A stretch of DNA of 64,000 nt. Origin: Phycicoccus elongatus Lp2. GTDB lineage: Bacteria > Actinomycetota > Actinomycetes > Actinomycetales > Dermatophilaceae. The notes under the pieces are model-generated. The model made no database searches. It was not told the origin of the DNA and was given only the letters and a program-made list of their open reading frames with translations. The position numbers and the translations under genes were made by a program. This document shows positions 13,429 through 30,965 of this stretch, piece by piece (position 1 is the first letter of the stretch; each line of letters opens with the position of its first letter). The stretch spans positions 1,305,185 through 1,369,184 of the forward strand of contig NZ_HF570956.1 in the NCBI RefSeq assembly GCF_000367525.1, written 5' to 3'.

Positions 13429-13470
13429 TCGGGCTGACAGGATTTGAACCTGCGGCCCCTTGACCCCCAG
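13429..13470 (-). other. attL: 3' half of the original tRNA-Pro gene
   Basis: This stretch encodes the T arm, the 3' acceptor strand and the 3' side of the anticodon arm of a tRNA-Pro. It breaks off after the 15-bp core CCCCTTGACCCCCAG (13456–13470). The matching 5' half is at 30934–30965 beside an identical core at 30919–30933. Joining the two gives a perfect 74-nt tRNA-Pro with anticodon GGG. It is therefore the left attachment site of the element and no longer a functional tRNA. Confidence 0.9.
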
Positions 13471-13563
13471 GCGTCCAGACGGCTCGATTCGAGCTGAAAG
13501 CCGCGTAGTTCCGCGGGTCAGATCATGCAGGGCACGTCATGAGATGCATGGTTTGCATGATTC

Positions 13564-13582
13564 TGGTCCCCTTTTGGTCCCC
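13564..13582 (+). repeat. Left arm-type integrase repeats (two copies of TGGTCCCC, 11-bp period)
   Basis: TGGTCCCC occurs at 13564–13571 and 13575–13582, about 100 bp inside attL. An identical pair lies at the right end (30631–30649), and inverted copies lie at 30717–30735. Repeats at one helical turn flanking a core are typical of the arm sites bound by the N-terminal domain of tyrosine integrases. This role is inferred. Confidence 0.6.
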
Positions 13583-13603
13583 CACGGAAATTATCGCGGA
13601 GGC

Positions 13604-15238
13604 TCACCAGCCTTGCCGCAAGACCTCTGCCTCTTCAAGACCTACTCGCGAAAACTCAGAGGACAGACGCTCCACCACCCTCTGCGCGTGATCAGTCTTG
13701 AGGTCGCCGACCCAGCGCCAAGACTTGCCTCTCCCTTTCACCTTCACCTCGGAAAACCGTCCGACTTTTCGGTACCAGCGAACTTGCACGGTTCCGGCTG
13801 GTCCCCCGTTGAAATCACGCATCAGAATCCGCGACGGCTTGGGCACTACCCGCAATCGCACGTAGCCACTTGATGCTTGAGGGTCGGGTACCGTCAAATC
13901 GCTCGGAGCGCGGTCGCCTTCGCTAACGACCTCAAGCGGCAACAACGGGAACATCCGGGACCCGTTGATCCTGACGCTGTCACAAAGTGGTTGGACACAC
14001 ACTGCGTACGTGCCTTCCTGTTCCACGATCGTTCCGAGCTGCATGACCGGCGAAGGCTTGGCATACCTGCTGCGTAGCGACATGCGCATTGAGAAGATCT
14101 GATCTGAACGCTGCTTCTCCTCTAGAGTCTCCACGAACAGGTGAGTTGCCTCGGCAGCGAGCTTCTTCTTTCCGATGCCAGCATCCTGCAACTCCTGCAC
14201 CGCTTCATGACTAAATCCTTCGGCAAGAAGCCGTAGTCGGAGTTCAGCGGTCATCGACTCGAAGGTCGATACGCCTCGCGAGCCAATCCCGCTCTTATGT
14301 TTTAGCCACTCACGGACCCGCGGTAAGCCCACATGCGACCCGACTTCATGGTCCTGTACGATCGCCGCTAGCTCCGAAGCAATCAGGCCTTCAACCTGTC
14401 GCTCGACGTCTTCTGGGTGGGCTAGCGATACGCGCTGGCCAAGCACGGCGCCATCGATCTCTGGCCCCAAGGCTGCCAGCAGTCGGTGAGCATCGTTGCG
14501 GATGCCGGCGAGGGCGGAGAGAGAAGCAGTCGTTACAAGCCCAAGACTGTGGCGACCGAACTCCTCGACAACCACTGTGGGCAGCGCGGAAATCGCCCGT
14601 CGGCGGTCAGCAAGCTCGGCCGGAATGCTCTGTACATGCTCCTTTGCGAAAACAGCAACGCGCACCGGGCCGCGGCTAAAAGCGACGTGACGATCATCGT
14701 CCCATTTCAGCTCATCCTCACCAAGGCTCTCACTCGTGGCGTTCGCGATGCGGTCCGTAATCTGTCTGAGGTCAGGTTCACCGGTATAGACGGTAACCAA
14801 CCGAAGACGTCGGCGCGGAGACTTGGTGTCTTCACGCAGAACCGCGCGAATGAGCTTTTCAGCCGTAGCACCATTGTCGCCGTTGAGGTTCCAATCGAGA
14901 ATAAGCGCGTCAGCTCGCTTCGCTGTCCGAACAAACGCCGGCCTGAAGTCTTCATTCTCTTCCGCCGACTGCGGAGACAAGATGGCGCATGACAGTGCCG
15001 CCTCCGCAAAGCTACGCGACACAGCTTGGACATCAAGTTCATCGCCCTCGGCCGAGGCCCCCGGAGCGACCAGTTTGAGCGCCGAACCTACCGGTGGAGT
15101 GTCATCGTCGGCCCAGTCTTCGTCTGCAGCCTGCTCCGGACCCGAATCTCTACGAAAGGCTTCGTCGTCGATCATCAAGATCGTCTGAAGGAACTCCAGC
15201 ACCTGGCGCCGTACGTGAAGCTCAAATCTCGTCGCCAC
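13604..15238 (-). CDS. Receiver-domain protein of the methyltransferase–GHKL cassette
   Basis: The 544-residue protein starts with a response-regulator receiver: acidic pair D24/D25 in LMIDDE, phosphoacceptor D115 in LILDWNLNG, a threonine in LVTVYTGE (T149 or T152) and lysine K199 in VFAKEH. An insertion of about 80 residues separates the first strand from the phosphoacceptor, unlike ordinary CheY domains. No HTH, GGDEF or nuclease motif is seen in the remaining 340 residues. Those contain a helical region and a beta-rich C-terminus (GTIVEQEGTYAVCVQPLCDS). The GTG at 15238 lies one base after the TGA of the GHKL gene, so it is translationally coupled and is likely phosphorylated by that kinase-like protein. 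Output function is unknown. Confidence 0.8.
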   Translation of the reverse strand: MATRFELHVRRQVLEFLQTILMIDDEAFRRDSGPEQAADEDWADDDTPPVGSALKLVAPGASAEGDELDVQAVSRSFAEAALSCAILSPQSAEENEDFRPAFVRTAKRADALILDWNLNGDNGATAEKLIRAVLREDTKSPRRRLRLVTVYTGEPDLRQITDRIANATSESLGEDELKWDDDRHVAFSRGPVRVAVFAKEHVQSIPAELADRRRAISALPTVVVEEFGRHSLGLVTTASLSALAGIRNDAHRLLAALGPEIDGAVLGQRVSLAHPEDVERQVEGLIASELAAIVQDHEVGSHVGLPRVREWLKHKSGIGSRGVSTFESMTAELRLRLLAEGFSHEAVQELQDAGIGKKKLAAEATHLFVETLEEKQRSDQIFSMRMSLRSRYAKPSPVMQLGTIVEQEGTYAVCVQPLCDSVRINGSRMFPLLPLEVVSEGDRAPSDLTVPDPQASSGYVRLRVVPKPSRILMRDFNGGPAGTVQVRWYRKVGRFSEVKVKGRGKSWRWVGDLKTDHAQRVVERLSSEFSRVGLEEAEVLRQGW

Positions 15239-15239
15239 C

Positions 15240-30735: not shown

Positions 30736-30761
30736 CGAAAGACGACCGCCGGACATGATGA

Positions 30762-30797
30762 AGCCCAGGCGAGAAACCTGCTCTCACCTGGGCTTTT
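30762..30797 (-). terminator. Hairpin downstream of the element-borne tRNA-Pro
   Basis: AGCCCAGG (30762–30769) pairs with CCTGGGCT (30787–30794), extended by GAG/CTC inside. It lies 4–40 bases past the tRNA 3' end, so it probably ends the tRNA transcript. A TTTT immediately follows on the plus strand, so it may also end integrase transcription. Confidence 0.65.
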
Positions 30798-30800
30798 ACG

Positions 30801-30874
30801 TCGGGCTGACAGGATTTGAACCTGCGACCCCCTGACCCCCAGTCAGGTGCGCTACCAAGCTGCGCCACAGCCCG
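30801..30874 (-). tRNA. tRNA-Pro (anticodon GGG), complete copy carried by the element
   Basis: The minus-strand sequence folds as a full cloverleaf of 74 nt without encoded CCA. It has acceptor CGGGCTG/CAGCCCG, D arm GCGCAGCTTGGTAGCGC, anticodon stem CCTGA/TCAGG with loop CTGGGGG, and T arm GCAGGTTCAAATCCTGT. The anticodon GGG reads CCC and CCU proline codons. It lies inside attL–attR, so the element brought it. Its anticodon stem differs from the disrupted chromosomal copy (CTTGA/TCAAG), showing a separate origin. Confidence 0.95.
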
Positions 30875-30918
30875 TGGCATAAATTTTCAGTTGTTCGGGC
30901 CGACCAGAGCGGGGTAAA

Positions 30919-30965
30919 CCCCTTGACCCCCAGTCAAGTGCGCTACCAAGCTGCGCCACAGCCCG
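30919..30965 (-). other. attR: 5' half of the original tRNA-Pro gene
   Basis: Contains the 5' acceptor strand, D arm and 5' anticodon arm of a tRNA-Pro (CGGGCTGTGGCGCAGC...), then the shared core CCCCTTGACCCCCAG. After that the element sequence does not restore a T arm. The complete tRNA lies 44 bases further along the same strand, so the native promoter upstream of 30965 probably now drives the replacement copy. Confidence 0.9.

Follow-up and report, generated by a model that had tools for sequence, protein, structure and literature searches.

What keeps a cell supplied with a tRNA whose gene has been split by a mobile element and left unrepaired? The question is raised by a tRNA-Pro(GGG) gene of Phycicoccus elongatus Lp2, in a stretch of 64 kb that was analysed as a whole (contig NZ_HF570956.1, positions 1,305,185 to 1,369,184; hereafter the window, whose coordinates are used below). 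A 17.5-kb element, 13456-30933 from core to core, splits this gene in the anticodon loop. Based on comparison of sequences, we favour the reading, with a probability of roughly 0.88, that this is an integrated mobilizable element which uses tRNA-dependent integration and drops its replacement tRNA behind the native leader. Read along the minus strand, the locus consists of the native leader, 5' stub, spacer, complete tRNA-Pro(GGG), hairpin, element body with the integrase gene (int) and displaced 3' half; its features are as follows.

31103-32590, minus strand: der GTPase, the backbone neighbour upstream of the tRNA, conserved (NCBIfam PRK03003, E 3.6e-248; also its neighbour in relatives and at the empty site)
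30966-31030, minus strand: native leader and promoter region of the host tRNA-Pro, upstream of the stub (by-eye alignment with the same-genus empty-site leader, CCGATTCGG ... GGGCTAA)
30919-30965, minus strand: 5' stub of the host tRNA-Pro(GGG), 47 nt, unrestored (all 47 nt identical to the joined tRNA)
30919-30933, minus strand: att core at the integrase end, CTGGGGGTCAAGGGG (longest string common to both halves)
30875-30918, minus strand: element-derived spacer of 44 nt from core to replacement tRNA (near-identical across elements of unrelated hosts, whose leaders differ)
30801-30874, minus strand: element-borne complete replacement tRNA-Pro(GGG), stem CCTGA/TCAGG (ARAGORN; sole full GGG copy in the genome)
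30761-30795, minus strand: terminator-like hairpin 3' of the replacement tRNA (-26.6 kcal/mol, z -6.6; similar sequences behind the tRNA in relatives)
29362-30591, plus strand: tyrosine integrase, 409 aa, converging on the tRNA (Pfam PF00589, E 3e-25)
27666-28502, plus strand: C-terminal part of a VirD4/TraG-type coupling protein, the upstream frame being cut by a stop (Pfam TraG-D_C, T4SS-DNA_transf)
19628-21862, minus strand: MobF (TrwC) relaxase, short compared with relatives (Pfam TrwC, E 3.5e-91; NCBIfam MobF)
13604-19275, minus strand: cargo of a C5-cytosine methyltransferase, a HATPase/HEF_HK protein and a receiver-domain protein (Pfam, PADLOC)
13456-13470, minus strand: att core at the far end (same 15 bp as at the integrase end)
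13429-13470, minus strand: displaced host 3' half of tRNA-Pro(GGG) (shares the 15-bp core with the 5' stub)

Only two copies of the 15-bp core are present in the window (13456-13470 and 30919-30933). The halves join into a 74-nt tRNA that differs from the element copy at three positions: 29 and 43, which form one pair of the anticodon stem (CTTGA/TCAAG in the joined native gene versus CCTGA/TCAGG in the element copy), and 48, a variable-loop base. The one tRNA gene that ARAGORN called in the window is the tRNA-Pro(GGG) at about 30801-30874 on the minus strand, and the genome (3.17 Mb, one contig) contains no other full tRNA-Pro(GGG) gene, the remaining tRNA-Pro genes being CGG and TGG. Classical restoration of the target was not found at the junction: the stub (30919-30965) continues into non-tRNA spacer with no intact gene, and the native downstream sequence adjoins the displaced 3' half (13470-13429), 17.5 kb from the stub end. 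The hairpin was matched by 0 of 200 shuffles and carries no T-run. The original prediction had described two gene halves with a shared 15-bp core, a 5' stub left unrepaired, a whole tRNA-Pro with a different anticodon stem carried on the same strand 44 nt beyond it, and a hairpin behind that tRNA; each of these was recovered independently, the halves and core at the same coordinates and the hairpin at 30761-30795.

The uninterrupted form of the gene was found in a same-genus genome (G002), where a single intact tRNA-Pro(GGG) with the expected CTTGA/TCAAG stem and 100% identity to the joined halves lies about 0.1 kb behind der (L048: der match 7544-8992, tRNA 9114); the same search gave a match at E 1e-12 in 95 of 97 relatives. 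Related elements that carry a replacement tRNA with the CCTGA/TCAGG stem, also anticipated by the prediction, are present in many genomes.

Integrase matches at E 1e-60 were present in 9 of 186 host-family genomes, the own genome included. A scan of GTDB genomes with the integrase gave 79 named loci from the best 80 of 308, which together with the window and six loci from G genomes make up 86 locus rows (L040r and L137 being the same element counted twice). Of the 86 rows (the scan part being the best 80 of 308), 56 have stub, spacer and full tRNA behind the integrase, 12 have a full tRNA but lack a stub nearby, and 18 have no full tRNA within 1.7 kb. The 12 stubless rows comprise three with an apparent end of another element in front (L043, L126, L159), four with one tRNA behind a host-like leader (L118, L125, L134, L155) and five distant outgroups (L046, L173, L177, L178, L179). 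Among the 18, two have stub and full tRNA farther off (L137, which is G127, and L142), the sequence of L124 is masked by N, the single tRNA of L105 contains one extra base, and L141, L172 and L174 keep only the 3' half of the element tRNA with an element-type terminator, preceded by an apparent newcomer end. Going by assembly titles and tree labels, replacement rows fall into nine named actinobacterial families, some as MAGs or small contigs in which contamination is possible: Microbacteriaceae, Micrococcaceae, Intrasporangiaceae, Dermabacteraceae, Brevibacteriaceae, Beutenbergiaceae, Propionibacteriaceae, Nocardiaceae and Actinomycetaceae. Identical integrases occur in L104 (Nocardia cyriacigeorgica NBRC 100375), L103 and L169, which are Nocardia, Microlunatus and Haematomicrobium records; this reflects either a very recent transfer between orders or contaminated contigs.

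The replacement tRNAs appear to be maintained as working genes. Eight distinct sequences were found in the 56 loci, with standard stem pairs in 168 of 168 cases; the pairs 5:69, 29:43 and 31:41 show double changes. Of the stubs, by contrast, 13 of 56 have a broken anticodon stem. Stubs are host-specific and the element tRNA is constant across hosts. Among the matches listed for whole-genome searches of 37 genomes, a single full copy with at least 95% identity is present in 36 and two in G237, full-length matches of 85% or less being assumed to be other proline isoacceptors. In 21 of the 37 (again among the matches listed), one contig carries the stub, the full copy and the 3' half, arranged and oriented as expected. 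One copy in G014, which has an element-like terminator, no longer has a paired acceptor stem; an intact gene is present elsewhere in that genome. Because a tRNA-Pro(UGG) is present, and in enterobacteria this tRNA can read all four proline codons, loss of the GGG isoacceptor may be tolerated. Recoding of the anticodon stem as a shield against the integrase was considered and rejected, since some replacements have the host stem CTTGA/TCAAG and replacements themselves get split.

Since the intact joined gene occurs at 100% identity in a same-genus relative and the arrangement recurs in 56 of the 86 locus rows, it is not a product of chance. Two tRNA 5' halves on the same strand, 91 nt apart, could also have come from a native tandem pair of tRNA-Pro genes of which the element broke the upstream member. 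This reading is rejected because the empty site holds one gene; moreover, elements of unrelated hosts have spacer and replacement in common, whereas leaders and 3' flanks match the host, and an element-free relative with two native tandem tRNA-Pro genes, the case named beforehand as refuting, was not found among the relatives searched. Phages often carry tRNAs as cargo, and the full tRNA could accordingly be translation-helping cargo that matches the target by coincidence; we regard this as very improbable for a tRNA that has the isotype of the split gene and sits beside the core in 56 of 86 rows, and that is the sole full copy in 36 of 37 genomes (among the matches listed).

Under tRNA-dependent integration, the host target is the single-copy tRNA-Pro(GGG) gene immediately downstream of der, and strand exchange by the tyrosine integrase would take place in or near its 7-bp anticodon loop. 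The element carries a complete spare tRNA-Pro(GGG) with the same orientation, 44 bp inward from the junction and followed by its terminator-like hairpin, so integration would put it directly behind the native leader. The replacement would then supply the only full tRNA-Pro(GGG) of the cell, and its loss would be expected to do harm; stub and tRNA would be transcribed together from the native promoter, and the transcript would be processed by RNase P and nucleases. If excision were precise, the host gene would be restored.

Transcription of stub and replacement from the native promoter, as originally proposed, is plausible. The proposal stands in that a leader with a promoter-like motif is kept upstream and that no sigma-70-like site was found in the stub-spacer stretch of the window, and it is weakened in that a promoter overlapping stub and spacer could still serve. 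A promoter-like pattern was detected in 13 of 29 native leaders (shuffle mean 0.5) and in 20 of 56 stub leaders (shuffle mean 1.2). Spacers are of two types, measuring from stub start to tRNA about 91 nt and 80/81 nt. Shortly before the tRNA, both types have an A-rich motif (AACTGAA, AACTAAA or AGTGAACAA, with AGTGAA as the third variant) and little other shared sequence; candidate roles for the motif are an arm site, a site of processing or a promoter element. If the last, the replacement tRNA might be driven by its own promoter in stub or spacer and its closeness to the native leader would be incidental, as in phage Fionnbharth, for which a tRNA promoter has been measured (PMC10865867). We consider this unlikely, though well short of negligible: the motif (AACTGAA, AACTAAA or AGTGAA) just before the tRNA counts in its favour, but the 44-nt spacer is without a sigma-70-like site, the 91-nt and 80/81-nt types share little besides the motif, and in 56 of 86 rows leader and stub are directly followed by the full copy.

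Two other roles for the spacer were tried and rejected. A chimeric tRNA formed by stub and spacer folds little better than expected (z -0.8 versus shuffles), and its by-eye acceptor-like match is missing from the 80/81-nt type; a common spacer hairpin gave weak alifold energies (-5.1 and -0.5). In L032 and G199, which belong to one genus, ACAACTGAAGATT precedes the native tRNA, which is suggestive only of the spacer having been captured from such a host leader.

The type of carrier was assessed from the remaining genes. Of 9 genomes, 8 have the MobF relaxase within the element; in G223 it is found elsewhere. The relaxase frame is 746 aa in the Phycicoccus elongatus element versus 1208-1292 aa in seven other elements, and it runs into a stretch that in G112 lies about 2.9 kb farther away; a stop near 27540 interrupts the coupling-protein frame (26349-28502). 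The copy looks damaged and probably cannot move itself. An integrase together with an own relaxase or coupling protein, as is found here in a window copy that looks damaged, defines an integrative and mobilizable element (IME). Such elements should also lack a type IV secretion ATPase of their own; a search with a single model, AAA_10 (PF12846), gave no match inside the elements of 9 of 9 genomes. AICEs of the pSAM2 type are characterized by an FtsK/TraB-like translocase and a Rep protein, neither of which was found among the 10 window ORFs scanned. The cargo (13604-19275), which includes a 994-aa protein with two HATPase domains and HEF_HK, matched no PADLOC system as a whole; by its domains it resembles a restriction-like or defence cassette. 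A prophage remnant with ordinary tRNA-dependent lysogeny would follow the same principle as certain actinobacteriophages (PMC10865867), but is extremely improbable given that the element encloses a MobF relaxase in 8 of 9 genomes, that no phage structural family was present among the 10 window ORFs scanned in Pfam, that phage integrase matches all stay below 60% identity, and that an IMG/VR scan gave one relative at 41% identity.

Returning to the integrated mobilizable element, the att core common to all 56 loci is only 7 bp (CTGGGGG, in the anticodon loop), and cores drift otherwise; the 15-bp core of the Phycicoccus elongatus element exceeds this family minimum. In G112, the attR stub has CCTGA..TCAAG and attL has TCAGG, and from the stub (CCTGACTGGGGGTCAAGGGG) and far-end (CTGGGGGTCAGGGGG) sequences the exchange can be placed within CTGGGGGTCA. 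In L136 and L166, only the 3' part of the replacement tRNA is present about 255 nt after the integrase, at a junction that lacks CTGGGGG and reads CCAAGGGGTCGC; perhaps another integrase class strikes the same tRNA at a different point.

Replacement tRNAs are themselves targets. Seven of the 56 loci (L120, L122, L145, L148, L163, L170, L171) have a second stub before the first with an element-type spacer between them, so that stubs are lined up as the rungs of a 'ladder'. L180 (Labedella populi) reads, in order, host stub CGGGCTG, 81-nt-type spacer, stub CGGGATG, 91-nt-type spacer and full tRNA, and 13 kb on has the matching 3' half, ending in CATCCCG, with the element terminator; from this element-type stub and its distant matching half, it follows that a newcomer split the replacement tRNA of an earlier element. 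Insertion into the core of a stub seems to occur as well (L043, L126, L159).

The relation to classical integration was examined with a quick tree of 78 integrases (eight shorter or broken ones were left out), for which the tool warns of long outgroup branches and in which the displaced loci L043, L126 and L159 were coded as replacement by hand. Seven outgroup rows (5 single, 2 unknown) are separated from 71 rows (56 replacement, 12 unknown, and 3 single nested within), and a minimum of 4 changes between replacement and single is required; one gain and three reversions would fit, if the root is right. Outgroup integrases, at about 50% identity, go with classical gene restoration, as in G199, where an intact tRNA lies beside the integrase together with a duplicated 3' half with terminator. 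L125 and L134 (in G236 and G243) have a far-end 3' half on the same contig (among the matches listed), as expected had stub and replacement fused. We hold evenly in the balance a wider scenario of a conjugation-type lineage with tRNA replacement as its normal lifestyle, in which the sole isoacceptor gene on the element would bind the host (a tRNA-based 'addiction'), the replacement would be the next landing site and elements would stack with one working tRNA always behind the native leader; the mode would have arisen from classical restoring elements and be revertible by stub-replacement fusion.

The replacement principle is already known from phages, as tRNA-dependent lysogeny in Fionnbharth, LeBron, Gaia and others (Guerrero-Bustamante & Hatfull 2024, PMC10865867); that paper lists phages only and leaves open the spread beyond actinobacteriophages and the relation to the classical mode. 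The premise of the original prediction that most elements restore the 3' end of their target holds, but the exception was already on record. Shared with tRNA-dependent lysogeny are a tyrosine integrase (PF00589) with attB in a host tRNA gene (seen at the empty site), a core too short to rebuild the tRNA (15 bp here and 7 bp common to the 56 loci; 8-17 bp in Table 2 of PMC10865867), a carried tRNA of the disrupted isotype with the target not rebuilt, and the lack of another copy of the disrupted host tRNA (in the own genome, with one full copy in 36 of 37 others among the matches listed). Unlike the temperate phages, the carriers here have a MobF relaxase, and their tRNA-Pro(GGG) target is missing from Table 2 of PMC10865867. 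The tRNA of this family starts 32-46 nt beyond the 47-nt stub and points toward int, whereas that of Fionnbharth overlaps gene 37 and has its own promoter (PMC10865867) and that of Gaia, compared by position relative to int, starts 286 nt after int on the strand of int. Prophage Lj965 of Lactobacillus johnsonii is likewise reported to carry a cognate tRNA and to leave its target unrebuilt (as cited in PMC10865867), but is a prophage in a host that is not actinobacterial. Islander islands (PMC4383910), which include an anticodon-centred crossover class, and AICEs such as pSAM2 (PMC3218068) also combine a tyrosine integrase with a tRNA target; they restore it through a carried 3' part, whereas the present elements leave it broken and bring a whole gene. 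No non-phage case of tRNA-dependent integration was found in the open-licence PMC literature, which is not proof of absence.

What is new is the relaxase-bearing carriers, the position of the tRNA beside the att core and behind the native leader, its reuse as a landing site and the visible link to the classical mode. The family thereby extends tRNA-dependent integration to relaxase-bearing elements in nine named actinobacterial families, and offers classical outgroups, apparent reversions and nested insertions around a core tRNA gene that has been turned into mobile property. Because an Islander-type search expects a regenerated target with a displaced fragment (PMC4383910), islands with a replacement tRNA may be mis-delimited.

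Several loci bear signs of later rearrangement. In G130, a window-type spacer is followed by a hybrid full tRNA that looks like the scar of a lost element. G230 (L112, L141) has two 3' halves and one stub, and the missing rung was perhaps lost by recombination between 91-bp repeats. In G223 (L053, L054, L093, L094), a 3' half at 1885852 lies near der, with the replacement tRNA at 1900903, the relaxase at 2097517 and, at 2217594, an intact tRNA that adjoins homologues of the other flank's backbone genes; this scatter looks like a large inversion with its ends in or near tRNA-derived repeats.
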